Below are positions 15,010 to 53,755 of a stretch of DNA of 64,000 nt, piece by piece. The stretch spans positions 78,273 through 142,272 of the forward strand of contig NZ_FOLV01000011.1 of the NCBI RefSeq assembly GCF_900112415.1, given 5' to 3'. The translations under genes were made by a program, and so were the position numbers. Under the pieces are notes generated by a model. That model was not told the origin of the DNA, made no database searches, and worked only from the letters and a program-made list of their open reading frames with translations. The DNA comes from Bacillus sp. 491mf. GTDB lineage: Bacteria > Bacillota > Bacilli > Bacillales > Bacillaceae_G. Each line of letters starts with the position of its first letter. Position 1 is the stretch's first letter.

Positions 15010-15042
15010 GCAAAGTAAGGAATGAACCTTACTTTGCTTTTT
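15009..15042 (+). terminator. Terminator after yuiD
   Basis: AGCAAAGTAAGG/CCTTACTTTGCT perfect stem followed by TTTTGTTTT. Confidence 0.9.
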
Positions 15043-15109
15043 GTTTTGCGCATATTTACGTATGTTTTTGAATATCGTATATGGATTCAGTGAAGAAGGG
15101 GGGATATCT

Positions 15110-16969
15110 ATGCAATTGTATGACAAAGTAAAATACGAAATGGAGCGCCAGGTTACAGCGTTACGTACGATGCAGCAAAGAGATGGAACATGGCGCTTTT
15201 GTTTTGAAGGAGCCCCGCTTACGGATTGCGCGATGATTTTCTTGTTACGTTTGTTAAGAAAAGAAAAAGAAATCGAACCATTTGTAGCAAGGCTTACTTC
15301 TTTGCAAGCAAATGAAGGAATGTGGAAGTTGTATGAAGATGAGCCAAATGGGAATCTTTCTGCTACCATTCAAGCTTATGTTGCATTGTTAGCTTCTAGA
15401 GAATATAAGAAAGAAGACAGAATTATGCGCCGTGCAGAACAATTTATTCGCGAACAAGGTGGAATTACAAATGCTCACTTTATGACGAAGTTGATGTTAG
15501 CATTGCATGGACAATACAATTATCCTCCATTGTTTCACTTCCCTATGCCTTTTTTCTTTCTACCGGATCATTCCCCGTTCAGTATGTATGAGGTGAGTAA
15601 TACTGCTCGCATTCATTTCGTGCCTACGATTATTTGTATGAATAAGAAATTTGTAGTAGGAGAAATTGACGTTCCTGATTTGAATCATATAGTGGGTGCA
15701 AATAAATCAAATTGGTTTCATTCTCAGCGTTCGTCAGTTTGGCAAACCATTTTATCTGAAGGAAAAAAGCTAATTTCGTATCCGTATACACTTCATCAAA
15801 AAGGGTATAAAGCAGCGGAACGTTTTATGTTAGAACGTATAGAAGGAAATGGAACACTTTACACTTATGCGAGCGCTACTTTTTATATGATTTATGCCCT
15901 CCTTGCTCTCGGTCATTCTATACATTCTCCTATTATCGAGAAAGCTGTATTAGGGATACAGTCGTACATATGGAATACAAAAAATGGTGCCCATTTACAA
16001 AACTCACCTTCAACCGTGTGGGATACTGCTCTTTTAAGTTACGCTTTGCAAGAAGCAAATGTGTCAGAAGAGGATGCGATGATTGAACGAGCAAATCGTT
16101 ATTTATTAAGGAAGCAGCATACCTCTTACGGAGATTGGCATGTTCATGCACCTTCTTTACCTCCTGGCGGATGGGGGTTTACTGATACGAATACGATTGT
16201 ACCAGATTGTGATGATACAATAGCAGCGCTGCGTTCACTTACTTCTATCACAAAGAAAGATAAGAAAGTGAAACGAGCTTGGAATGAAGGGATACATTGG
16301 ATTCTTGGAATGCAAAATAAAGATGGGGGTTGGGGAGCATTTGAGAAGAATGTTGATAAGCATATGTTTATGCATATTCCTCTCGATAGCGCAGAAGATA
16401 TGATTCTCGATCCGTCTACAGCAGATTTAACAGGAAGGGTACTTGAATTTTTTGGAACGTATGCACCGGATGAAATAAACAGTTATGATTTACACCGTGC
16501 AATGCAGTGGCTTTTACGTAATCAAGAACAAAATGGTTCTTGGTATGGAAAATGGGGAGTTTGTTACATATATGGTACATGGGCTGCTGTAACAGGTCTG
16601 CGGGCAAATGGTTTACCAAATAATCATCCAGCAATAGAAAAAGCAGTACGGTGGTTAGAGATGATTCAACATCGTGATGGAGGCTGGGGGGAATCGTGCA
16701 AAAGTAGTAAGGAGAAACGATTTATTTCAACGTCTTTTAGTACACCTTCTCAAACTGCATGGGCTCTAGATGCGCTAATTGCTGTATGTGATATGGAAAC
16801 ACCATCTATTCAAAACGGAATCAATTATTTGTTAGAAAACGCCTTTCATAATATTGAATATCCGACTGGAGTAGGACTTCCCGGAGAGTTTTATATTCGT
16901 TATCATAGTTATCATCGTTTATTTCCTTTACTGACCTTTGCACATTATGTGAAAAAATACAAAAAATAA
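15110..16969 (+). CDS. sqhC: Squalene--hopene cyclase family protein (SqhC-type terpene cyclase)
   Basis: A 619-residue class II triterpene cyclase. The protonating DXDD motif is present as D366-C-D-D369, and several QW repeats are seen (for example QNKDGGWGAFEKN and QHRDGGWGES). In bacilli the homologue cyclises tetraprenyl-beta-curcumene and squalene, giving sesquarterpenes or hopanoid-like sporulenes on the membrane. Which substrate is used here cannot be told from sequence. The start is ATG 15110 after AAGAAGGGGGGATATCT; the longer frame opens within the yuiD terminator. A bidirectional terminator follows. Confidence 0.92.
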   Translation: MQLYDKVKYEMERQVTALRTMQQRDGTWRFCFEGAPLTDCAMIFLLRLLRKEKEIEPFVARLTSLQANEGMWKLYEDEPNGNLSATIQAYVALLASREYKKEDRIMRRAEQFIREQGGITNAHFMTKLMLALHGQYNYPPLFHFPMPFFFLPDHSPFSMYEVSNTARIHFVPTIICMNKKFVVGEIDVPDLNHIVGANKSNWFHSQRSSVWQTILSEGKKLISYPYTLHQKGYKAAERFMLERIEGNGTLYTYASATFYMIYALLALGHSIHSPIIEKAVLGIQSYIWNTKNGAHLQNSPSTVWDTALLSYALQEANVSEEDAMIERANRYLLRKQHTSYGDWHVHAPSLPPGGWGFTDTNTIVPDCDDTIAALRSLTSITKKDKKVKRAWNEGIHWILGMQNKDGGWGAFEKNVDKHMFMHIPLDSAEDMILDPSTADLTGRVLEFFGTYAPDEINSYDLHRAMQWLLRNQEQNGSWYGKWGVCYIYGTWAAVTGLRANGLPNNHPAIEKAVRWLEMIQHRDGGWGESCKSSKEKRFISTSFSTPSQTAWALDALIAVCDMETPSIQNGINYLLENAFHNIEYPTGVGLPGEFYIRYHSYHRLFPLLTFAHYVKKYKK

Positions 16970-28622: not shown

Positions 28623-28744
28623 TGTTCATTAATACGTATAATATAACCATGATTGAAGTTTCACTTTATAAGCGAAACGAAACTGAACGAAATAATTACC
28701 CCTACATACAATAAAGTAATGCATTGTTTTGAGGGGGAATAGAT

Positions 28745-29200
28745 ATGTACTATGTAAATCCTAATTCGTATTATCAATTTTATCGAGTAAATGAAGGCAC
28801 TAATAAACAAGTATCGCAAGCGATTTTAGAGGCGATCCAAGGCGAAGCTGCCGCAATTGATTTTTATAGCCGACTCGTAAACGAAGCGCCAAATGCGAAA
28901 CATAAGAAAGATATTTCACATGCATTAGAAGATGAAAAAGTTCATTTACAGCAGTTTATACAATTGTTTACAACATTAACGGGGCAACAGCCAACGTATC
29001 AAGTAGTACAAACGCAATATTCTTCTTATAAAGAGGGATTAGAACGTGCGTATGAAGATGAATTAGAAGCGTATGAAGATTATCGGAATGCCTATTTGCT
29101 AACGCAAAACTTAGCAGTTCGAGATGTTTTTTTTCGAGCGATGACAGATGAAATAGAGCATGCTATACGTTTTGGTTTTTTACGATCTTCCTTATCCTAA
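28745..29200 (+). CDS. Ferritin-like domain protein
   Basis: A 151-residue all-helical protein. The ferritin/rubrerythrin-like metal ligands are in place: EGEAAAIDFYSRL (first helix Glu), EDEKVHLQQF (E-x-x-H), AYEDELEAYEDYRNAY and MTDEIEHAIRFGF (second E-x-x-H). This is the four-helix diiron layout, so iron or oxygen chemistry is likely, possibly in spores (the B. subtilis YhjR family has this form). No export signal. Start ATG after GAGGGGGAATAG; its own terminator follows. Confidence 0.85.
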   Translation: MYYVNPNSYYQFYRVNEGTNKQVSQAILEAIQGEAAAIDFYSRLVNEAPNAKHKKDISHALEDEKVHLQQFIQLFTTLTGQQPTYQVVQTQYSSYKEGLERAYEDELEAYEDYRNAYLLTQNLAVRDVFFRAMTDEIEHAIRFGFLRSSLS

Positions 29201-32503: not shown

Positions 32504-32587
32504 AATACCTTAAATATGAGTAATTGTTAATACATATTGGAAATAAGGGATATACTGTTAAGAAGTGATAAGGAAGAGGTATGTGGT

Positions 32588-33436
32588 ATGTATGAACCAA
32601 AATATTATATTGTATTTGATATTGAGCGGAATTTTAGACCTTATCAATCAGATGCTCCGACGGAAATAGTTGATATCGGAGCCGTCAAGATTGAAGCAAG
32701 TACAATGAGCATCATCGAAGTTTTTTCGTCATTAGTGAAACCAACGGCATCCCTATCTCGTCATACAACAAAATTAACAGGAATTACAAAACAAGATGTA
32801 AAAGGTGCAGAAAAATTCCCGAAAGTAATTGAGCGCTTTCGTAAGTTTTTGGAAGAAGATTACATGTTTGTAACGTGGGGAAAAGAGGATTATGGATTTC
32901 TAACAGAAGATTGTGCACGATATAATGTGAAATGTCCTAATCTTGAGAAAGAAAGAAGATTTGATTTACAGAGATTTGTATTTCATGCATATAAAGAATT
33001 ATTTGTAAATCCACCTAGTTTGAAACTTGCAGTAGCACAATTGGCTTTAGAATGGGAAGGAAAACAACATCGCGCCTTTGACGATGCCAAGAACACGGCA
33101 AATATTTTTCTTACAGCAGTTAAACAAAAAGACATTCGTAAACGTTATAAGAGAAATGTGGAGCTAGTCCTTGTGAAAAGTGGCTCTTTGACTGATAAGG
33201 GTAGAAAGAAAATGAAGAGATGGGTATTTAAAGAGGTAAAGAGAAGTGGACATTGCCGCTTGACATGGAATACATTCATGAAGAGTAAGACATGGGAGAA
33301 TGTGTTAGAACAATATCATTTTGATAATCCGACCTTACGTCTGTTGCAAAATTATTTTCATACTGCTTTAAAGAAAGCTAAACAGCAACTTCAAGTATTA
33401 GCAGCAATGAATAACCAAGAAAATAAAACAAAATAG
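32588..33436 (+). CDS. 3'-5' exonuclease, DEDDh family (KapD/ERI1-like)
   Basis: A 282-residue protein with a DEDDh exonuclease domain at residues 5-180. ExoI is FDIERN (Asp and Glu), ExoII is around TWGKEDYGFL and ExoIII is HRAFDDAKNTANIF, with its His and Asp. It resembles Bacillus KapD, an inhibitor of the KinA sporulation pathway, and eukaryotic ERI1 exonucleases. A basic C-terminal roughly 100 residues (YKRNVELVLVKSG..., KKMKRWVFKEVKRSG) may bind nucleic acid and is not part of short KapD proteins. ATG 32588 has AGGAAGAGG 8 bases upstream. Confidence 0.83.
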   Translation: MYEPKYYIVFDIERNFRPYQSDAPTEIVDIGAVKIEASTMSIIEVFSSLVKPTASLSRHTTKLTGITKQDVKGAEKFPKVIERFRKFLEEDYMFVTWGKEDYGFLTEDCARYNVKCPNLEKERRFDLQRFVFHAYKELFVNPPSLKLAVAQLALEWEGKQHRAFDDAKNTANIFLTAVKQKDIRKRYKRNVELVLVKSGSLTDKGRKKMKRWVFKEVKRSGHCRLTWNTFMKSKTWENVLEQYHFDNPTLRLLQNYFHTALKKAKQQLQVLAAMNNQENKTK

Positions 33437-33955: not shown

Positions 33956-34312
33956 GAACGTAGCAAATAACCACTGAAAATGATTTAGTCAATAAGTGAA
34001 TGGAATGAAAACGACGAAACCTTTCTATGAATATTCCAATACTAGAAAGAATGAATAGAATGATTTTTTTCTATTTTACGTTTGATAAAACACTATTACC
34101 TAGTTTAATTATAAGAATATAATAAAAATAGTTAATAGTACCCCGCTTGTTAAAACAGAGGCATTCCATCACGTATCAACTACTAATCATTTTTCAATTG
34201 AATTAAATTATAAAAATATATATTAATCTAGGGTACATTTGCGAGTGAAGAATCATAGAATATGAGATGAAGGGATTACAAAAATATGAAATCTAGATTA
34301 AGGAGAAATGAA
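33956..34312. other. AT-rich intergenic region
   Basis: No coding frame, repeat or clear hairpin is seen; presumably it holds the promoter of the kinase-like gene. Confidence 0.5.
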
Positions 34313-34861
34313 ATGAAATCATACTTTAATACAAGAAGAGTAAGTAGAGGAGATATAGAAAAATATAAGCTCATTGGAGATGGGAAGGATGGGGAAGTAT
34401 ATCAAATATCCCATAATAAATGTGTGAAAGTATTTTTTCTAGAAAAAACGCAAAAACAAGAGTTGGAAGCTCTTAAAGTTGGACAATCATCACCTATTAT
34501 TCCACGACTGTATGAATATGGAGACAATTATATTGTTATGGAGTATGTACAGGGAATATCACTTGCACGTCATTTGAAAAGAGAAAAAAAATTTACAGAA
34601 GAATTAACTGGAAAAATAATACTAATGTTGGGCGAATTGAAAAAATTAGGATTTACTAGATGGGATACGGAAGTGAGACACGTTTTAATAAATGAAGAAG
34701 GACAGCTAAAAGTCATTGATCATAAAAGAGCCTTTACTTCAAATAGTAAAGTGCCTACTAAGTTATTAAAAGGATTTCAAAAATTTGGGCTGGATCAGGA
34801 ATTTTTAAGAGGTGTGAAGAAAGCACATCCTTCCGTATACAATTCATGGATGAAGTACTAA
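34313..34861 (+). CDS. Protein-kinase-like protein (YrzF type)
   Basis: A 182-residue small kinase-fold protein. A glycine loop IGDGKDGEVYQI is followed by the lysine CVKVFF, the hinge YIVMEYVQG, a catalytic-loop region TRWDTEVRHVLINEEG and a DFG-position IDHKRAF. The loops deviate from Ser/Thr kinases (no HRD), as in RIO/Kdo-kinase-like and Bacillus YrzF proteins. Activity or pseudokinase status cannot be decided. ATG 34313 has AGGAG 7 bases upstream; ATG 34286 is possible but has a weaker site. It precedes the sugar operon by 290 bp and may or may not belong to it. Confidence 0.75.
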   Translation: MKSYFNTRRVSRGDIEKYKLIGDGKDGEVYQISHNKCVKVFFLEKTQKQELEALKVGQSSPIIPRLYEYGDNYIVMEYVQGISLARHLKREKKFTEELTGKIILMLGELKKLGFTRWDTEVRHVLINEEGQLKVIDHKRAFTSNSKVPTKLLKGFQKFGLDQEFLRGVKKAHPSVYNSWMKY

Positions 34862-35150
34862 TAAAAAACGAATTGTCAGGGGGTTATCACTTTAATATGA
34901 AAGCCATTTCTGGTTTTTGATTCTTGCTTTTCTAAAATATACGGCCGATACCTGTTTGTGTATAGCTAATTGCTAAGATATTCACATTGGTGATAAAAGG
35001 TGCTCTTTATCTCATAGGGAGAAATACACATGTATTTATATAGCTGAACCATTGGTTATTAGTAATAAATAAAAACAAGTTTTCCGCTAATGACAGTTTC
35101 TTTTTGTGGTACTAATCATAAATTAGGTAGTACAAGGAGTGAAAATACTA

Positions 35151-35807
35151 ATGAAAGAGTGTATATTAGTCATTGGCGCACATCCCGACGATGAGTTATT
35201 AGGATCTGGCGGGACTTTAAAAAGATTAGTAGAAGAAGGCCATCAAGTAATTTCAATCATTACTGCTCTAGGAAGAAAAGAGCAAGCTCATCACATACAG
35301 CAATTAGGCAGGTGTGCAAACAAGGAGATTGGTATTGAAGAGGTGATATTCCTCGAGCACAGTAATTTAGAGTTGGAACTAATTCCACTGCACCAATTAA
35401 CGAAAGAAATTGAACAATTAATAAATATCTATAAACCAAGCAAAATCTTTACCCATCATTATGGAGACCTCAATAAAGATCACTACGTTACTTTTCAAGC
35501 GGTTTTGACTGCGACACGTCCCCTATCAAACCAACAACCAATCGAATTGATTACATTTGAAACCGTTTCCTCAAGCGAGTGGAATATCCACACGAATGAT
35601 AAATCTTTCAAACCCAATTATTTTGTGAACATTACCGATCAAATAGATTCGAAAATTGCTGCGCTTAAACATTACGATGTAGAAATGAGAGATTTTCCGC
35701 ATCCTCGTTCATACGAAGGGGTTCAATATTTAGGAAGAGTAAGGGGAATGACGGTCGGTGTACCATATGCCGAGGCATTCGAAGTGATAAGGAGGGTTTG
35801 GAAGTGA
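35151..35807 (+). CDS. PIG-L family N-acetylglucosamine deacetylase-like enzyme
   Basis: A 218-residue zinc-dependent deacetylase. AHPDDE at residues 10-15 gives the metal-binding His/Asp pair. The segment HHYGDLNKDH supplies the second half of the site, as in BshB and MshB, which remove acetyl from GlcNAc conjugates. ATG 35151 is used, since AAGGAG lies right before an in-frame GTG (35139) and at proper distance from the ATG. First gene of a five-gene operon, it overlaps the next gene by four bases. Likely role: deacetylation of an N-acetylamino-sugar intermediate made by the operon's glycosyltransferase (inference). Confidence 0.87.
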   Translation: MKECILVIGAHPDDELLGSGGTLKRLVEEGHQVISIITALGRKEQAHHIQQLGRCANKEIGIEEVIFLEHSNLELELIPLHQLTKEIEQLINIYKPSKIFTHHYGDLNKDHYVTFQAVLTATRPLSNQQPIELITFETVSSSEWNIHTNDKSFKPNYFVNITDQIDSKIAALKHYDVEMRDFPHPRSYEGVQYLGRVRGMTVGVPYAEAFEVIRRVWK

Positions 35808-37135
35808 AAAAGAGATTTGAGTTTCCTTATTCTTATGTAATTAAAACATTAGATAAGTATTATGGAGTTCATGCATACTCGATGCAAAAAAAGAAGGATA
35901 CAGTGGAAGAGCGTAATATAAATAGAGAGTCAAAGACTTATAAAAAGAAAAAGCTCTCAATATTAATTGCTACATTTTGGGATTATCCTCATATTGGGGG
36001 GTTATCAAATTATATTACGGCACTTAGTGAAGGGTTAAGAAAACAAGGCCATCACGTAGACATCGTATCTCCTAATCAATTTTCTAAAAGTAGAGCCGAA
36101 AAGATGCGTCAAGCGGTTGTTCCGGAATTAAAAAGTTTTTTTAATACACGATATGGAAGTTCTAATAGCACAATTATTAGAAATCAAAAAAATATGTATA
36201 TTTACGAAAGAATGCTGCTCGAAAATATTAACTTTAAAAAATATGATATCTTTCATGCGCAAGATATATTTACAGCTAATATATTAGGAAGAATCAATGA
36301 ACAGTATGGAAAAAGATTAATATTCACACCTCATGGTATGTTTACTTTTAATCGTATAAAGTTCGGCATATTTAAAAAGGGTTCGCTAGAAGAGTTTTAT
36401 CATATGGTCTTAGAAAAAAAGGCAATTGATAATGCAGATCATATTATTATTCTCAGCGATTCATTTCGCCGTCCATTAATGAAGTTAGGGGCAAAACAAC
36501 AGAATATGACAACTGTATTAACTGGCATTGATTATCCCCATAAGTATCATACTGAAAATACATCATCATCACATAAGAAAATCGTCATTACATGTGTAGC
36601 TAGATTAGGTCCAAGAAAAGGCCATAACATATTACTTGATGCTCTTTCACAAATCGGAAAGAAATACACAGATAATGTAAAAGTTCTCATTGTCGGAGAC
36701 GGTGAGATGAGGCATTCGTTAGAGGATCAAGTTAATCATTTGAATCTTTCCATGGTAGAGTTTTTAGGGCAAAGAAATGATGTTCCAGATATTTTAAGTA
36801 AAACTGATATTTTTGTACTTCCAACTTTAAACGATAGCCTACCTATTTCTATTATAGAGGCAATGCATAGTGGAGTTTGTGTCATTTCTACGCCATCGGG
36901 AGGTATACCTGAACTTGTTCGCCATTCTAAGACAGGTATTCTTGTTGAGGGAGGAGATGCAATAGAACTGGCACGGGCATTAAAATATGTCATTGTAAAT
37001 AAACAGGAACGAGAGCAATTAGGGAAAAATGCAAGAATATTCGCTAAAAAGTATTTAACTAGAGAGACAATGATAGCGAATATCGAACAAATCTACAGAG
37101 AGCGTTTTGATAAGGAAGGATTCTATGAATCATGA
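35804..37135 (+). CDS. Glycosyltransferase family 4 protein (first copy)
   Basis: A 443-residue GT-B enzyme using a nucleotide sugar. After a roughly 45-residue N-terminal extension (FEFPYSYVIKTLDKYYG), the acceptor domain has GGLSNYITALSEGLRKQGH and FTPHGMF. The donor domain has VARLGPRKGHNILLDAL, VLIVGDGEM and the EX7E region SIIEAMHSGVCVISTPSGG. GTG 35804 follows AAGGAGG by 8 bases and overlaps the previous stop as GTGA. It is clearly paralogous to the GT4 at 39401, including the N-terminal extension. GT4 enzymes such as BshA/MshA start GlcNAc-based thiol pathways, which makes the pairing with a PIG-L deacetylase notable. Confidence 0.88.
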   Translation: MKKRFEFPYSYVIKTLDKYYGVHAYSMQKKKDTVEERNINRESKTYKKKKLSILIATFWDYPHIGGLSNYITALSEGLRKQGHHVDIVSPNQFSKSRAEKMRQAVVPELKSFFNTRYGSSNSTIIRNQKNMYIYERMLLENINFKKYDIFHAQDIFTANILGRINEQYGKRLIFTPHGMFTFNRIKFGIFKKGSLEEFYHMVLEKKAIDNADHIIILSDSFRRPLMKLGAKQQNMTTVLTGIDYPHKYHTENTSSSHKKIVITCVARLGPRKGHNILLDALSQIGKKYTDNVKVLIVGDGEMRHSLEDQVNHLNLSMVEFLGQRNDVPDILSKTDIFVLPTLNDSLPISIIEAMHSGVCVISTPSGGIPELVRHSKTGILVEGGDAIELARALKYVIVNKQEREQLGKNARIFAKKYLTRETMIANIEQIYRERFDKEGFYES

Positions 37136-38300
37136 ACATGCAGCGGTCGTGTTGGATTTAAGTGCCAATGGGATTGGGATTATTAGAAGTTTAGCGAGAA
37201 AAGGAATTCGTGTTTATGCATTTGATGTAGAGAAACCATATAAAATAGGGAAGTCACGCCTTGCTTCATGCGGAATATGCCCAAGTCCTTTATCTGAAGA
37301 AAAATTATTACTAGTTTTTCTAATTGACTTCGCTAAAAAGTTAAATTTGAAACCTGTTTTGTGTACAGGTGCTGATGACTATGTAATATTCATTTCAAAA
37401 TATCGAACGGAACTGTCTAAATATTATTTGTTTTTATTTCCTGAACATTCGTTGATTGAAGAAACATTAAATAAGCAAAAAATGCATGAGCTGGCAACAA
37501 AGCATAATATTCCATGTCCTAAAACGTATGAGATTAAGACAAATAAACAATTGGAAGAAGCGATATCGAACCTAGATTTCCCGTGTATATTAAAGCCGGT
37601 TTTAGGACATGAGTTTCGAAAAAAGATAAACCAAAAGGCAATTCTTATACAAAATCCAGATCAACTTAGAAATGAGTATAAATCGTATCGACAGCACGGG
37701 AAGCTAATTCTTCAGGAAATCATTCCTGGTGATAATCAATGTTTTTATAAAGTTGCCACATTTTATGATGATAACATGAATTTATTGGCATTATTTTCTT
37801 TACAAAAGAATCATCAGTTCCCAGCTGAATTTGGAACAGGAGCTCACATTGTTAGTAAAGAAGTTCCAGAATTAGTAGATATATGTCTACCTTTTTTTGA
37901 GAAGATTAAGCTTAAAGGTATTGCTATGGCAGAGTTTAAAAAGGATCCTCGAGATGGCGTTTATAAGTTTATTGAAATAAACCCTCGTTTTTGGTTAACT
38001 CACAGTCTGACAGGAGCTGCTGATATTGATTTTGCTTACATGTATTATTTATATTTAACGAGGCAAAATCCAACTCCAAGACTTAAACAAGTAGACGGTA
38101 TCAAATGGATTTATCTTGTGCGATATTATTTAACATTCTGCACTAAGAAAAAAAGGGCAGAAATGACGTGGAAAGATTTTTATAAAGGGTTACGCGGTAA
38201 AAAAGAATATGCTTTGTTTGCATGGGATGACCCAATGCCGTTCATTAGAAGCGCATACTCTCACTTGATAAACGCCTGGAAACGAAAACGAAAGGAATGA
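37125..38300 (+). CDS. ATP-grasp carboxylate-amine ligase-like protein
   Basis: A 391-residue protein with the ATP-grasp layout. The N-terminal Rossmann-like part is AVVLDLSANGIGIIRSLARKGI. The central part is KQKMHELATKHNIPCPKTYEI (lid helix typical of the fold), then FPCILKPVLGHEF with the ATP Lys and LILQEIIPGD. The C-terminal metal site is FIEINPRFWLTHSL (E-x-N). Such enzymes join a carboxylate to an amine with ATP; the pattern resembles predicted ATP-grasp proteins of glycan and peptide-conjugate clusters. ATG 37125 with AAGGAAGGA overlaps the preceding gene by 11 bases. Substrate unknown; it may add an amino acid to an amino sugar (inference). Confidence 0.85.
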   Translation: MNHEHAAVVLDLSANGIGIIRSLARKGIRVYAFDVEKPYKIGKSRLASCGICPSPLSEEKLLLVFLIDFAKKLNLKPVLCTGADDYVIFISKYRTELSKYYLFLFPEHSLIEETLNKQKMHELATKHNIPCPKTYEIKTNKQLEEAISNLDFPCILKPVLGHEFRKKINQKAILIQNPDQLRNEYKSYRQHGKLILQEIIPGDNQCFYKVATFYDDNMNLLALFSLQKNHQFPAEFGTGAHIVSKEVPELVDICLPFFEKIKLKGIAMAEFKKDPRDGVYKFIEINPRFWLTHSLTGAADIDFAYMYYLYLTRQNPTPRLKQVDGIKWIYLVRYYLTFCTKKKRAEMTWKDFYKGLRGKKEYALFAWDDPMPFIRSAYSHLINAWKRKRKE

Positions 38301-39361
38301 ACACATTGTACGAAGTAAAAACATTATCCCGTTTAATTGAAAAGTTAAGAATTACAGAAAAACTCTCTTATTCAATGAATAAGAGAGTTGCAATTGATTA
38401 CGGTAAAATAGAATGTTTAAAATCTACAAGAAGAAGTAGCATTTACAAATTATTTATTACATCAGGAGCTAATAATGTTCCGATTGTTTTAAAAGTATAT
38501 AATTCAACAGATTACAAAAATGAAGTAGAAATTAATATATACGATACAGCTTATCCTGTATTGAAAGAATTTCTTCCTGAAATATATCATATTGAAAAAA
38601 ATGGAGACGAGACCTGGATATTTATGGAGTTTGTACGCCAAATACGCGGTCAGATAACTTTTCTCCCTAAACATTTTGACTATATTATTCCCGCTGTTGC
38701 TAAACTTCATGCGCGTACATTTGAAGACAATAGTAAAAAACATAAAGATGTTTGGAAATCTTGGTTACCTATTTATGAATCGAGCCGCATGAGAAATGAT
38801 CGGACGAAACAAATTGAAAAGACGATTGATTTTCTCAATGACGGAATGAAAGACGATCGGATAAGCGGGATTATTAAGCCTTATTATAAATCACTTATAA
38901 AACTATGTAATAAGGGACCGGATCTTTTTCCGGAATTATTTCAAAATGGTTCATCGATCACGCATGGAGATCTTCATTTGCAAAACATTTGCAGTAATAA
39001 TGTGACACTACATGCACCGTGGAATATCCAGTTTATCGATTGGGAGTCAACTAAATATGCACCTGTCTGGTTTGATATGGTTGTTCTAGTTGAAATCTTA
39101 ATGGGATTTAGGAAAGATTGGCAGAACAGAGCCGAAGAAATTCGTACACATTGTGTGGAAGTCTATGCAAAAGAAATGCAGAAGAATGGCATAAACTTTA
39201 AAACAAAGCCAATTGACCTTTATAAGATGGCGTATTTGCAGAGAACATTAGAAAAAGGGTTGCATACTCAGCTGCGAAGAATATTTGATAACCGTGGCGG
39301 TGAATTATTGCCATATCACCTTGAAAAAATTTCTACCTGGGGAAGTGAACTAGGTTTATAG
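38297..39361 (+). CDS. Aminoglycoside-phosphotransferase-like kinase
   Basis: A 354-residue kinase-fold protein. It has a clear Brenner motif THGDLHLQNI (catalytic Asp and metal-binding Asn) and the DFG-equivalent FIDWES. The ATP-binding N-lobe has VLKVYN and the hinge WIFMEFVRQ. These features define the APH/choline kinase group, which phosphorylates small hydroxylated molecules. It overlaps the ATP-grasp gene by four bases (ATGA). It could phosphorylate the sugar product or protect the host (inference). An antibiotic-resistance role is possible but not supported by its position inside a biosynthetic operon. Confidence 0.82.
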   Translation: MNTLYEVKTLSRLIEKLRITEKLSYSMNKRVAIDYGKIECLKSTRRSSIYKLFITSGANNVPIVLKVYNSTDYKNEVEINIYDTAYPVLKEFLPEIYHIEKNGDETWIFMEFVRQIRGQITFLPKHFDYIIPAVAKLHARTFEDNSKKHKDVWKSWLPIYESSRMRNDRTKQIEKTIDFLNDGMKDDRISGIIKPYYKSLIKLCNKGPDLFPELFQNGSSITHGDLHLQNICSNNVTLHAPWNIQFIDWESTKYAPVWFDMVVLVEILMGFRKDWQNRAEEIRTHCVEVYAKEMQKNGINFKTKPIDLYKMAYLQRTLEKGLHTQLRRIFDNRGGELLPYHLEKISTWGSELGL

Positions 39362-39400
39362 TATATATGCTATTTTTATCATTAGCTGAGTTAGGAGGAG

Positions 39401-40729
39401 ATGCTTCTGAATACAGCAAAGGAGAGACGAAGTGAATGTAATTATCCTTTCCATACGAGCCTACTAAAAATCATGGATGAATACTACCAAATAGAAAATC
39501 AAAAGGATCATATAATCGAACCGTTTCAAACGTTTGGAATCAAAAATGATAGCACGTTAAGTAAAACAAAAAAATTAAAAATTCTTTATGTAACATTTTT
39601 GAAATACCCTAATACAGGGGGATTATCAAACTATATTACTTCGTTAAAAACAGGCTTTGAAAAGTATGGTCATGATGTAGATGTCATCTCTCCTACTCAA
39701 ATGACCGCAGTTCATATAGAGCAAGAAGTTCCGAAGGCTGCGAAATACACAAGAGATTTTATGTTACAACGTTATGGTATAGTAAATGAAAAAATTATTA
39801 AAAACACGAGTTTTTTGAATGTTTTTAAGTCTTATTTAAGAGAAAAAAGCCTAGAGCAATATGATATCTTTCATGCACAAGATTTATTCGCTGCTTTTTT
39901 ATTAGGACAACTAAACCTAGAATATAAGAAACCACTTTTTTTTACACCACATGGGCATTTTACAAAAAGTCGATTGAAATTTGATAAAATAAAAAAAGGA
40001 TCGATTGAAGAAGCGTATTTTAGTGAAATTGAAAAACAGGGAATAAGAGCGGCTGATCAAATCATAACAATCAGCAATTCCTTTCATACTCCTTTAAAAG
40101 AATATGGGGCAAAGACAGAACAATTGATTACTGTTCATACAGGTATACACTTTCAGCAAGATTTTATACCTAAACAGGATTGTAATAATAATCTAGTAAT
40201 TTCCTGCATTTCCCGCCTTTCTCCTAGAAAAGGTCATGACATTTTTTTAAAAGCACTTTCACAAATTCAACAAGATTTATCAAATGTAGAGGTATGGATT
40301 GTTGGAGATGGTGTTATGAGAGAAAGGCTTGAAAATCAAGTGATACAGCTTGGTCTTGACAGGATTAAATTTTGGGGAAGAAGAACAGATATACCAAAAA
40401 TTCTTTCTTCTTCCTCAATCTATGTTTTACCTACCATTAACGATAACTTTCCAATTTCCATTATTGAAGCTATGCTTTCTAGTCAAGCTATTATTACAAC
40501 AAATTGCGGTGGAATACCAGAAATGATTCAAAACGGAAAAACAGGGATCATTTGTGAACCGGGCAACGTTCAACAACTTTCTGAGGCTATTAAATTGCTG
40601 TTAACGAATAAGAGTCTTCGTGAGCAATTGGGAAAAGAGGCACAGAATTATTCACAGCAACATTTAACTCAGGATGTAATGGTTTCAAAGATTGAAAGAG
40701 TATATTACTCTTTTATGAATAATATGTAG
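39401..40729 (+). CDS. Glycosyltransferase family 4 protein (second copy)
   Basis: A 442-residue GT-B enzyme, paralogous to the GT4 at 35804. It has the shared N-terminal extension (PFHTSLLKIMDEYYQI), GGLSNYITSLKTGFEKYGHDVDV, FTPHGHFTKSRLKFD, ISRLSPRKGHDIFLKAL and SIIEAMLSSQAIITTNCGG. The start is uncertain: AGGAGG ends only two bases before ATG 39401, while the in-frame CTG at 39407 would have ideal spacing. Homology to the paralogue begins after that point. Two related GT4s suggest two sequential sugar additions or two acceptors. Last gene before the operon terminator, 39 bp after the APH-like gene. Confidence 0.86.
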   Translation: MLLNTAKERRSECNYPFHTSLLKIMDEYYQIENQKDHIIEPFQTFGIKNDSTLSKTKKLKILYVTFLKYPNTGGLSNYITSLKTGFEKYGHDVDVISPTQMTAVHIEQEVPKAAKYTRDFMLQRYGIVNEKIIKNTSFLNVFKSYLREKSLEQYDIFHAQDLFAAFLLGQLNLEYKKPLFFTPHGHFTKSRLKFDKIKKGSIEEAYFSEIEKQGIRAADQIITISNSFHTPLKEYGAKTEQLITVHTGIHFQQDFIPKQDCNNNLVISCISRLSPRKGHDIFLKALSQIQQDLSNVEVWIVGDGVMRERLENQVIQLGLDRIKFWGRRTDIPKILSSSSIYVLPTINDNFPISIIEAMLSSQAIITTNCGGIPEMIQNGKTGIICEPGNVQQLSEAIKLLLTNKSLREQLGKEAQNYSQQHLTQDVMVSKIERVYYSFMNNM

Positions 40730-41086: not shown

Positions 41087-41485
41087 TTAATCAAAAAACA
41101 CGATGGAATGAATCGCAGTTAAAGTTTCTTTCAGCGTTATATTTGCTTGATTAGAAGTAGGACAAGAGCACATTACCACTTCCCAATATTGCGCTCCTGT
41201 TCTTTGAAGATGGGTAATTGATACTCTACATCCACCTTTGTTTCCTGCAACTTCTGATCTCGTAAGCACTACACCGGAGAAACCTTTTTGCCTCAATTTG
41301 TCCACTATAGCTCTTTTATGGTCTGCAAGGGTGTGTTGACCCATATCCCTGATCCTAGTGTCAAACGTAAGTGCACAACCTTGACGACTATCCATAGGAA
41401 AAGGTTGTTTATCTAACATATACGGGTAATTATATTGATGATGATAAGGATTATATTGGTATTGTCCATTTGATTGCCAATACAA
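41087..41485 (-). CDS. Hypothetical protein, 132 aa, Tyr/Asn-rich N-terminus
   Basis: Residues 1-35 are low-complexity with Tyr, Asn, Gln and His (YWQSNGQYQYNPYHHQYNYP), as in several Bacillus spore-coat proteins. Residues 40-132 look globular, with one segment DKLRQKGFSGVVLTRSEVAG and four cysteines (CALTFD, GGCRVSI, VMCSC). It has no signal peptide and no family I recognise. A spore-surface role is only a guess from the N-terminus. Ribosome site AGAGGTG precedes ATG 41485. An exact 23-base stretch of the coding region recurs 300 bp away in the intergenic DNA upstream. Confidence 0.65.
   Translation of the reverse strand: MYWQSNGQYQYNPYHHQYNYPYMLDKQPFPMDSRQGCALTFDTRIRDMGQHTLADHKRAIVDKLRQKGFSGVVLTRSEVAGNKGGCRVSITHLQRTGAQYWEVVMCSCPTSNQANITLKETLTAIHSIVFFD
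41312..41334. repeat. 23-bp direct repeat, unit 1 (inside the 132-aa gene)
   Basis: TCTTTTATGGTCTGCAAGGG plus TGT, identical to 41612-41634; flanking bases differ on both sides. Confidence 0.8.
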
Positions 41486-41916
41486 AATAAATCACCTCTT
41501 TGTTAACTTGATTCCCTTTAGGTTATGTAAGTGTTTGTTTGAAAGTTCTGATTAAAAATTTTACGATTAGATTTAGTATTGTTATATGAAATGGATCTAA
41601 TTTAGTTAAGTTCTTTTATGGTCTGCAAGGGTGTCCGTATGACAAACAAGAAGTTTACATAGAAGAAAGTAGAGGGGATTTTGACCGGTCAGCGATGTAA
41701 GTGTCGAAAAATAAGGCGATTTGGTATCTGTATATTCCCTACCAAGAAATCCTTAAATAAAAGGAGCGCTCACTAAAAGCGCTCATAATAACTAAGAGGA
41801 ACCGTTTGTTAATTGATTAGTTGTTGACTTTTATACAATATCGTAAATGTGAATTATATAATAAGACGGTACTAAATTTGTCACTTTAATTATAAGTCAC
41901 TTTTATCCAGGATATG
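41486..41916. other. Intergenic region with repeat unit 2 and a terminator
   Basis: No complete gene. It contains the second 23-bp unit (41612-41634). A short open stretch after it reads YDKQEVYIEESRGDFDRSAM and ends at TAA 41699; this may be a remnant, family unknown. The hairpin GAGCGCT/AGCGCTC at 41764-41784 could be a terminator for transcription from either side. Confidence 0.5.
41612..41634. repeat. 23-bp direct repeat, unit 2
   Basis: Exact copy of 41312-41334, offset by exactly 300 bp, outside any recognised gene. Confidence 0.8.
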
Positions 41917-42996
41917 CTAGTCCTGATAAGGGCTTGAACCCTTTTTCATAATCTTATCAACTACTTCATGTAAATCGTCTGGTTTTAGGAATTCTATCGG
42001 TGAAAAACCTTGTTCGAAAGTTAAGGTATCGGCTTCTATCATTAAAATGTAACGACCATTAACTTTAGCGATGTGTACCGATTCACCGAAGTCAGATAAT
42101 AAACTCTTGATTCCAATATGGTCTGCCTTTAACTTTAACTCTATCTCAGGGGTATGCTCCACAATTTGCGCTGTAGCTTCCATAACCTCTTCCGTTGTGA
42201 AATGTTCCATAATTTCACGCTTTGGACTCGCAGCCCATACTTCCATCGCTTGGTCAAATTGTTCTCGTTCTTCTGTACCTTCTTCAAAGACGTCTTCGAT
42301 TTGGTCGTATACCATATCCATAACTTGTGTTTTCATAATTTCTGGCATGGAACGCTCGTATTCTACGAATTTTAAGAAGTCTTCGAAGTAGCGGGCATGT
42401 GATGCTTGGTGGATTTTTAGTTCGCCAACTTCCACGATGCCTTCTTCTGGCATATAGGGGTATTGAATCGACTTCATATTTTTCGTTGTGATGGCCATTT
42501 CAACATTTCGAATTAGCGTTGCCTCATCAGAAATAGAAGCAACCTTTGGCTCGAAGTCACATTTCATTACAAAGACGAACGGATCGTCGAAGTATTTACG
42601 AAGTTTTGCTTGGACAACGAGAAATACACCGCCGCGTACAGCGCTTGTATCAATATAGGTATAGACGAGTGGTTCATTTGTATCTTTAAATGTTTCTTTC
42701 GTTTCTGCAAAACGAATACGATTAAAAAGGTTGTAGTTCGGGTTTGAATCAAATTCGTGCCCAACTTCAACAATGAATCGGCCAATTTTTGTCGGGACTT
42801 GTTCACTTTTTGGGTGACGGTCTACTTTTCGTTTCGAAATTTTTAATAATTCACCGTCTAGAAAGTCTTTTAATGGACTATCTTCGTATTCTTCAGTATC
42901 TAATGTTTGAAAATGTTTATAACGCTTGTCTGCTTGTTCACCTTGGCCGTCTACTTGTACGACGTAAAAGGAAAGAAAATTTATTTCAAAATCCAT
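41917..42996 (-). CDS. DUF3900 family protein
   Basis: A 359-residue soluble acidic protein matching the DUF3900 family of the B. cereus group (recognised from FEINFLSFYVVQVDGQGEQ and the long helical middle part). No catalytic motif is apparent. The first half is beta-rich (VYTYIDTSAVRGGVFLVVQAK) and the second half helical, ending in a strand pair (IAKVNGRYILMIEAD). Such nucleoid/phage-associated or KwaB-like architecture is conceivable but not claimed. ATG 42996 has AAGGTGAT upstream. Function unknown. Single-gene unit. Confidence 0.75.
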   Translation of the reverse strand: MDFEINFLSFYVVQVDGQGEQADKRYKHFQTLDTEEYEDSPLKDFLDGELLKISKRKVDRHPKSEQVPTKIGRFIVEVGHEFDSNPNYNLFNRIRFAETKETFKDTNEPLVYTYIDTSAVRGGVFLVVQAKLRKYFDDPFVFVMKCDFEPKVASISDEATLIRNVEMAITTKNMKSIQYPYMPEEGIVEVGELKIHQASHARYFEDFLKFVEYERSMPEIMKTQVMDMVYDQIEDVFEEGTEEREQFDQAMEVWAASPKREIMEHFTTEEVMEATAQIVEHTPEIELKLKADHIGIKSLLSDFGESVHIAKVNGRYILMIEADTLTFEQGFSPIEFLKPDDLHEVVDKIMKKGSSPYQD

Positions 42997-53077: not shown

Positions 53078-53089
53078 GGAGTGGAGATT

Positions 53090-53755
53090 ATGGAAAGACA
53101 CGTACTTGTAGTATTTCCGCATCCAGATGATGAATCATTTGCGGCGGGAGGAACAATTCGTCAATATCGAAATAATGGAGTCCCTGTTACGTATGCTTGT
53201 GGAACACTTGGTCAAATGGGACGGAACATGGGGAAAAATGTATTTGCCAATCGCGAAACGATTCCGTGCATTCGTAAGCGTGAATTAGAAGAAGCATGCG
53301 AAGCAATAGGAATTGAAGATTTACGTTTACTTGGCTTTCATGATAAAACGTTGGAATTTGAAGACGTTGATTATGTAGCAGATAAAATTGAAGAAGTAAT
53401 TCGTGATGTAAATCCGTCTTTAATTATCACATTTTATCCTGAGCACGGTGTACATCCCGATCACAATGCATTTGGACGCGCAGCTGTTCGCGCAGTAGAA
53501 CGTATGCAAAAAGAAGAGCGTCCAGTTATTCATGCGGTGGCTATCACGAAAAATCGTGAGGAAGTATTAGGAAAGCCAGATGTAGTCAACGATATAAGCG
53601 ATGTATTACCGCAAAAATTCGCGGCGCTTCGTGCGCATCGTTCGCAAACAGAAGCGATGTTAGAAGAAATGGAAGCAAATCTGAAAAAGCAGGACCCAGC
53701 GACGACAAAACGGTTGCAAATTGAGCAATTTTGGACGTATAAATGGAAATTATAA
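53090..53755 (+). CDS. bshB2: Bacillithiol biosynthesis deacetylase BshB2
   Basis: A 221-residue PIG-L deacetylase. HPDDE at residues 11-15 and the second metal segment HGVHPDHNAFG are intact. BshB2 deacetylates GlcNAc-malate, the second step of bacillithiol synthesis, and may also work on bacillithiol conjugates (established for the family). ATG 53090 follows AAGGAGTGGAG; an upstream in-frame GTG is too close. Its operon partner is yojF. A second, distinct PIG-L enzyme lies at 35151. Confidence 0.92.
   Translation: MERHVLVVFPHPDDESFAAGGTIRQYRNNGVPVTYACGTLGQMGRNMGKNVFANRETIPCIRKRELEEACEAIGIEDLRLLGFHDKTLEFEDVDYVADKIEEVIRDVNPSLIITFYPEHGVHPDHNAFGRAAVRAVERMQKEERPVIHAVAITKNREEVLGKPDVVNDISDVLPQKFAALRAHRSQTEAMLEEMEANLKKQDPATTKRLQIEQFWTYKWKL

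Follow-up and report, generated by a model that had tools for sequence, protein, structure and literature searches.

The 64,000-nucleotide stretch of the Bacillus sp. 491mf genome studied here (contig NZ_FOLV01000011.1, positions 78,273 to 142,272; hereafter "the window") carries at positions 35151 to 40729 five open reading frames (ORFs), all on the + strand, that encode a PIG-L family de-N-acetylase, a first family-4 glycosyltransferase (GT4a), an ATP-grasp protein, a kinase of EcKL/APH type, and a second family-4 glycosyltransferase (GT4b). With the likeliest starts picked by ribosome-binding sites, the genes overlap by 4, 11, and 4 bp, and a gap of 39 bp precedes GT4b (Table 1). A sequence-only reading of this DNA had described such a five-gene operon with a paralogous second glycosyltransferase, and both points are borne out: the former by the ORF list, ribosome-binding sites, and Pfam matches, the latter by 43% identity between GT4a and GT4b, which form two clades (n = 26 and n = 21; support 0.947 and 0.999, respectively) in a midpoint-rooted tree. 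It had overlooked a linked kinase-like gene, the putative promoters, the link to sporulation, and a GalE-like epimerase gene found at 19 of 35 related loci. The enzymes are of known families, whereas the unit that they form is well conserved, probably belongs to late sporulation, and seems not to have been reported.

Table 1. Genes and predicted promoter elements of the operon, followed by other features of the window (positions are those of the window)
Feature	Position	Strand	Details
Protein-kinase-like protein	34286..34861	+	PF00069, 32.1 bits (cut-off 31.7); likely start ATG 34313
PIG-L family de-N-acetylase	35151..35807	+	start ATG 35151; PF02585, E = 8.6e-20
GT4a, family-4 glycosyltransferase	35804..37135	+	start GTG 35804 (ORF itself opens at TTG 35798); PF00534, E = 5.7e-40
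ATP-grasp protein	37125..38300	+	start ATG 37125; CPSase_L_D2, 23.8 bits (cut-off 19.8; divergent)
EcKL/APH-type kinase	38297..39361	+	start ATG 38297; PF02958, E = 6.3e-8
GT4b, paralogous family-4 glycosyltransferase	39401..40729	+	PF00534, E = 2.7e-39; start uncertain
Predicted sigma-K promoter of kinase-like gene	34235..34262	+	AC (34235)-N17-CATAGAATA (34254-34262)
Conserved upstream element GCTAnTGnCnGTTTC	35086..35100	+	ends 16 nt before the -10 box
Predicted sigma-K -10 box of operon CATAAATTA	35117..35125	+	CATAnnnTA before PIG-L
Exonuclease upstream of operon	32537..33436	+	NF005226 equivalog above cut-off (395 bits, cut-off 290); KapD-like, 78 bits, below cut-off 169
132-aa protein downstream of operon	41087..41546	-	no Pfam or NCBIfam match; sigma-K-like AC-N17-CATAACCTA ~34 bp before start
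Small protein	28745..29200	+	28687-29200 of the window; AC-N16-CATAnnnTA, -10 at 28705; no NCBIfam match at 1e-10
Squalene-hopene cyclase	15041..16969	+	TIGR01507 above cut-off
bshB2	53081..53755		TIGR04000, 338.9 bits (cut-off 195.25)

The start of GT4b at 39401 is less sure than the others because the ribosome-binding site abuts that ATG. Motifs that we take to be those of the active sites are conserved in three of the protein families, with AHPDDE and HHYGDxNxDH invariant in 26 PIG-L sequences, the E, I, N, and R of IEINPR invariant in 27 ATP-grasp sequences, and HGDLHxxN and DWE invariant or nearly so in 27 EcKL sequences. The best solved relative of PIG-L is diacetylchitobiose deacetylase (E = 2.1e-14), while the fourth protein fits EcKL better than APH (E = 2.8e-6) among Pfam families and weakly matches 4-hydroxytryptamine kinase (E = 0.0085); its AlphaFold2 model has a mean predicted local distance difference test (pLDDT) score of 84.1. 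The ATP-grasp protein, whose relatives on plasmids carry the annotation "carbamoyl-phosphate synthase," is predicted to form a complete ATP-grasp fold with conserved ATP-site residues (AlphaFold2 model, mean pLDDT 82.8). Using Foldseek, we find that this model matches complete ATP-grasp folds such as 2pn1 (template modeling score 0.79 by target) and, besides, the L-amino acid ligases 3vot and 4wd3, PurK, and biotin or pyruvate carboxylases. As these matches span ligases, PurK, and carboxylases, the substrate is not fixed by the fold, and the protein is a putative carboxylate-amine ligase.

The operon set is conserved as a unit and not a chance assembly, as became clear from the search for the same genes in other genomes that the sequence-only reading had called for. 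Plasmids were searched by tblastn with EcKL and the ATP-grasp protein, and five plasmid records were retrieved. EcKL is found in 38 plasmid records (37 from Priestia and 1 from Cytobacillus), and these are the 38 best ATP-grasp records, besides which there are 51 weaker ones; the EcKL matches are thus an anchor for the linkage that is independent of the ATP-grasp gene. Among genome contigs, a scan with the single ATP-grasp protein gave 8 pattern matches and no relative, and an alignment scan used instead found 21 loci in Priestia, Jeotgalibacillus, several Bacillus, Fictibacillus, Halobacillus, Rossellomorea, Pontibacillus, and Sporosarcina. In sampled genomes, an ATP-grasp match at 1e-60 is present in 23 of 397 from the order of Priestia taiwanensis (two of the 23 being distant) and in 7 of 378 from the class (five of the 7 already in the order sample), after which 12 more loci were retrieved. 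Our linkage counts cover 35 loci (26 + 9) apart from the window, all retrieved via the ATP-grasp gene, from which L060 and L064 (distant ATP-grasp proteins) and L071 (a repeat of the genome of L022) were dropped. GT4a and EcKL each adjoin the ATP-grasp gene at 35/35 of these loci and PIG-L at 34/35, GT4b comes after EcKL at 25/35, and the GalE-like epimerase gene follows at the 19 loci mentioned above. Because the loci were chosen by the ATP-grasp gene and several are close relatives, these figures are conditional on that gene and do not count independent events. Pairwise distances of the six families correlate (Mantel r 0.865 to 0.976, reached in 0 of 999 permutations), partly through shared descent. 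In Bacillus ectoiniformans, GT4a and the ATP-grasp protein are fused in a single 826-aa ORF (L018, 7696-10176), and Jeotgalibacillus soli splits the set between two contigs, of which one carries PIG-L with a GT4b-like gene and the other carries the kinase-like gene, GT4a, the ATP-grasp gene, and EcKL. We rejected L060 and L064 as carriers of the set, since their ATP-grasp relatives (38% to 40% identity) lack the other set genes in the retrieved flanks; the protein of L060 has also lost the IEINPR motif. As a separate observation, the set lies in conserved flanks between two genes—presumably rplI and dnaC—in Bacillus sp. ISL-51, B. nakamurai, B. siamensis, and B. velezensis (L008, L009, L010, and L020).

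The protein-kinase-like gene is a linked sixth member of this set. It sits ~290 bp upstream of PIG-L in the window and is found at 30/35 loci in the sequence retrieved around the ATP-grasp gene; at 15 of these 30 it lies on the same strand and at most 3.3 kb upstream of the ATP-grasp gene. All 25 sequences compared have the same K, E, RxD, RH, and DxKRA residues. In Pontibacillus yanchengensis (genome G010) and in genome G087 it is found apart from the operon.

The consensus for the -10 element of sigma-K promoters is CATAnnnTA. We find this pattern within 200 bp before PIG-L at 21 of the 26 first loci (shuffled sequences: mean 2.4, maximum 5). Ten loci with PIG-L that were retrieved after the motif had been defined carry it in seven cases, four of them also with GTTKC at the right distance, though L071 repeats the genome of L022 and L061 and L065 are near-identical among these ten. 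Counted over 35 loci that include the window and leave out L007 and L071, CATAnnnTA occurs within 150 bp before PIG-L at 27 (shuffle mean 2.8, maximum 8), and after removal of look-alikes at 13/18 (mean 1.39, maximum 5). Patterns for sigma-E and sigma-A are not enriched there, with 1/35 each. A further element (GCTAnTGnCnGTTTC in the window) ends 16 to 18 nt upstream of the -10 box across loci, and the combined pattern GTTKC-N16-18-CATAnnnTA is present at 24/35 loci and at 11/18 without look-alikes (shuffle means 0.00 and 0.01); these counts are partly circular, since the first loci served to define the pattern. Searching the two strands of the window gives a single match, at 35096. The PIG-L-less group of Jeotgalibacillus has CATATTGTA before GT4a, 17 nt after a copy of the element with two mismatches. 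Upstream of the kinase-like gene, CATAnnnTA is found at 21/31 loci (shuffle mean 1.73, maximum 6) and, with look-alikes removed, at 16/25 (mean 1.38, maximum 6), a -35 AC lies 14 to 18 nt upstream at 14/31, and the copies apart from the operon in G010 and G087 keep CATAGAATA 39 nt upstream. These patterns suggest that the operon may be under sigma-K control.

We also considered the upstream element as the mark of a large regulon and rejected this idea: GTTTC-N16-18-CATATANTA has 28 matches in 27 genomes compared to 19 for a reversed control, and 5 of the 28 are the operon itself, leaving 23 elsewhere against the same 19. The element looks operon-specific because its short form is elsewhere about as frequent as the control. 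As an observation in its own right, in Rossellomorea and relatives it is one of the two arms of a near-perfect inverted repeat of 15 bp (L013, 6919-6953, with equivalents in L012, L014, L015, and L017), for which an operator or terminator role is possible; this repeat was not found in the window.

Some relatives of the operon lie near genes annotated or predicted to encode spore proteins. On Priestia plasmids, genes for CotX-domain coat proteins (Pfam matches in L001) and for a YncE-like propeller lie at a distance of a few kb from the set; "spore coat protein" is annotated near it on the plasmids L002, L004, and L005 and "exosporium protein D" in L002 and L005. A collagen protein with a BclA_C match below cut-off is encoded ~6 kb away in Rossellomorea (L013), and stage II sporulation protein P is annotated near the set in Cytobacillus (L003). 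The sporulation gene spoIVA is present in each of the 27 genomes tested that have an ATP-grasp match (a distant one in two cases), a count not set against a baseline for the order. In Rossellomorea, Halobacillus, Cytobacillus, and Jeotgalibacillus, the set is flanked by low-complexity Ser/Lys-rich and acidic proteins, three of which were scanned without any Pfam family explaining them; they are possible acceptors or kinase substrates. Divergent acidic and Ser/Lys-rich proteins beside PIG-L (L003, 5137-7918; L013, 3162-6918; L076, 6641-8530) share a short "LGDxxxV...GTF...W.D.DG" stretch. Plasmid pBM600 of Priestia megaterium QM B1551 carries the cassette (BMQ_RS26615 to BMQ_RS26630) and the kinase-like gene (BMQ_RS26640). 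According to a previous study, all five exosporium-less derivatives of this strain are without pBM600, and a strain without pBM400 and pBM700 keeps its exosporium (PMC4674009).

Altogether, we favor the interpretation, with a probability of roughly 65%, that the operon belongs to the late mother-cell (sigma-K) program and serves to decorate the outer layer of the spore (exosporium or crust) with covalently bound sugars. We prefer spore-surface glycosylation over a free molecule because of the sigma-K-type promoters, the coat and collagen-like neighbors in Priestia and Rossellomorea, and the location on pBM600. Under this interpretation, the two GT4s would work in the cytoplasm of the mother cell and build a short glycan containing N-acetylhexosamine on an acceptor destined for the spore surface. 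Neither flippase nor polymerase would then be needed, and neither is found among the five genes. PIG-L would remove the N-acetyl group to expose an amine, to which the ATP-grasp protein may join a carboxylate activated with ATP, and EcKL would phosphorylate a hydroxyl of the sugar or the side chain. The kinase-like protein, from its own sigma-K-type promoter, may act on coat proteins or regulate the enzymes. Sigma-K control, the order of reactions, the substrates, the acceptor, and attachment to protein are conjectural parts of this scheme. Tentatively, and at somewhat below even odds, we propose that the product is a new class of spore-surface glycoconjugate—a glycan with a hexosamine that is de-N-acetylated, receives an amino or carboxylic acid in place of the acetyl group through the ATP-grasp protein, and is then phosphorylated by EcKL—made by sigma-K-controlled genes across the Bacillaceae and on the exosporium plasmids of Priestia.

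Several observations weigh against this interpretation. CATAnnnTA is absent before PIG-L at 8/35 loci (5/18 without look-alikes) and before the separate PIG-L and GT4b pair of Jeotgalibacillus, and a -35 AC 14 to 18 nt upstream is rare before PIG-L (10/35), where the GTTKC element stands instead. The kinase-like gene has no copy in genome G037 at 1e-5 and lies elsewhere in other genomes. No structural spore gene was recognized directly beside the operon of the window, and genomes with an ATP-grasp match contain CotX-domain genes no more often (7/23) than the sample as a whole (142/397). Exosporium loss cannot be assigned to the cassette, because pBM600 has many other genes and was not the only plasmid lost; a role for pBM500 cannot be excluded according to PMC4674009, and the cassette genes are not discussed in the sections of that article available to us.

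A free product is one alternative, given that PIG-L and the ATP-grasp protein could act on a free small molecule, as EcKL and ATP-grasp enzymes often do. The mother cell would then pack a free amino-sugar conjugate into or onto the spore in the manner of dipicolinate, the synthesis of which is under sigma-K control. Sigma-K-type sites fit bound and free products alike, and the GT4 and PIG-L proteins have BshA and BshB as distant homologues, yet we consider this explanation unlikely: genes near the set in Priestia and Rossellomorea encode coat or collagen-like proteins, two glycosyltransferases plus an epimerase at 19/35 loci suit a glycan better, and the spore cluster that comes closest has a link to coat proteins (PMC2860764). 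The pair of glycosyltransferases and the GalE-like epimerase would also fit a polymeric spore-surface polysaccharide of which PIG-L and the ATP-grasp protein only decorate the repeat unit. Clusters for spore polysaccharides are known from Bacillus subtilis; we nonetheless deem this idea quite improbable, as neither polymerase nor flippase nor exporter is found in the five genes or among the annotated recurrent neighbors, most neighbor clusters being unannotated.

The sequence-only reading had seen in the operon the logic of bacillithiol and mycothiol synthesis while excluding the bacillithiol operon itself, and the second point agrees with our results. Bacillithiol is made in the order BshA-BshB-BshC, and both systems have a GT4 and a PIG-L deacetylase followed by bond formation, and GT4 and PIG-L belong to the same superfamilies as BshA and BshB. 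However, the scores lie far below the equivalog cut-offs, with 108.3 and 98.7 bits of the GT4s for BshA (TIGR03999, cut-off 273.7), 89.7 and 72.1 bits for MshA (TIGR03449, cut-off 462.5), and 51.9 and 37.8 bits of PIG-L for BshB1 and BshB2 (cut-offs 182.5 and 195.25). The eight proteins scanned, which comprise the operon and its near flanks, give no match to BshC or MshC, a true bshB2 is encoded elsewhere in the window as that reading had stated (Table 1), and the extra kinase, second GT4, and late-sporulation-type promoters are further differences. Judged from these comparisons, the operon is not the bacillithiol or mycothiol pathway, and a vegetative thiol or redox cofactor of this type is very hard to reconcile with the data. 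Of the earlier proposal, the sequence of glycosylation, de-N-acetylation, and ligation stays plausible in light of conserved motifs and the ATP-grasp fold, whereas a free bacillithiol-like molecule is not supported as the default. A secondary metabolite of aminoglycoside type, accompanied by a resistance kinase, which would draw on the membership of the fourth protein in the EcKL/APH families, is in our view the most far-fetched of these ideas: it is at odds with the conserved sigma-K-type sites and the coat-protein neighbors in Priestia, and the scanned flanks hold an exonuclease, the kinase-like protein, and a protein of no known family (the wider window was not scanned for such genes).

The outermost spore layer governs sticking, spread, and recognition, and its sugars are known for few species. 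Here, a defined gene set with a recognizable promoter is available across many genera, and likely substrate classes emerge for its ATP-grasp and EcKL enzymes. For QM B1551, in which loss of the cassette-carrying plasmid already goes with exosporium loss, it becomes a directly testable question which pBM600 genes build the exosporium.

Other genes of the window were noted besides the operon. The flanking genes, scanned with Pfam and NCBIfam, comprise an exonuclease, the kinase-like protein, and a 132-aa protein without known family (Table 1). The best genome match of the exonuclease (71% identity) is in genome G389, the genus of which has two sampled genomes; neither of these matched the ATP-grasp protein (1e-60) or the gene at 41917 (1e-40), an empty result that is uninformative. 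The host may belong to the Bacillus cereus group, which is a guess. KapD, which the exonuclease resembles below cut-off, is an RNase that belongs to the spore crust in Bacillus subtilis (PMC11736430). Sigma-K-like sites precede the 132-aa protein and a small protein further upstream. To us, the latter resembles ferritin-like spore proteins, and the squalene-hopene cyclase of the window is probably of sporulene type.

We found no description of the gene set or its product in the literature searched (most subscription journals were outside its coverage), in line with the earlier statement that no named product is known. That statement had been paired with the notion that assignment to a known polysaccharide or spore-glycan cluster would speak against a new pathway; this is partly borne out, in that the operon looks like a spore-glycan cluster, one for which we found no published account. 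The spore kinase genes cotS/ytaA of B. subtilis and relatives are clustered with cotSA/ytcC and ytdA/ytcAB and tied to coat proteins (PMC2860764). This cluster is the nearest in logic to the operon but, by sequence comparison, not orthologous. Both have a related pair of GT4s (47% identical there, 43% here) and a choline/aminoglycoside-type kinase, together with nucleotide-sugar enzymes, a link to sporulation, and patchy presence among species, and the operon adds PIG-L and the ATP-grasp protein. We rejected orthology to CotS, as EcKL of the window has no NCBIfam match at 1e-3 (cut-off of TIGR02906, 172.7), and that of genome G037 reaches 34 bits with the CotS model. Orthology to CotSA/YtcC was likewise rejected, with only 22% to 26% identity over 183 to 255 residues between the glycosyltransferases and a pair of L079 that we take to be of CotSA/YtcC type from adjacent CotS-family kinases. 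Genome G037 has both a CotS-type cluster and the operon set.

For the kinase-like gene, a possible parallel is CotH, a spore-coat protein kinase that phosphorylates the serine-rich coat protein CotB (PMC7821199); Ser/Lys-rich and acidic proteins flank the set in several genera here, and the likeness is one of description. For the ATP-grasp protein, type B flagellin of Clostridioides difficile offers a comparison, the peptidylamido terminal sugar of which needs the ATP-grasp protein CDR20291_0245, annotated as carbamoyl-phosphate synthetase (PMC5207246). This system differs in that it acts on flagellin and not on the spore and, in the passages available of that article, has neither PIG-L nor EcKL. 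It has an ATP-grasp-dependent protein glycan, as is proposed for the operon, and is, by analogy, a precedent for amide chemistry on such a glycan.

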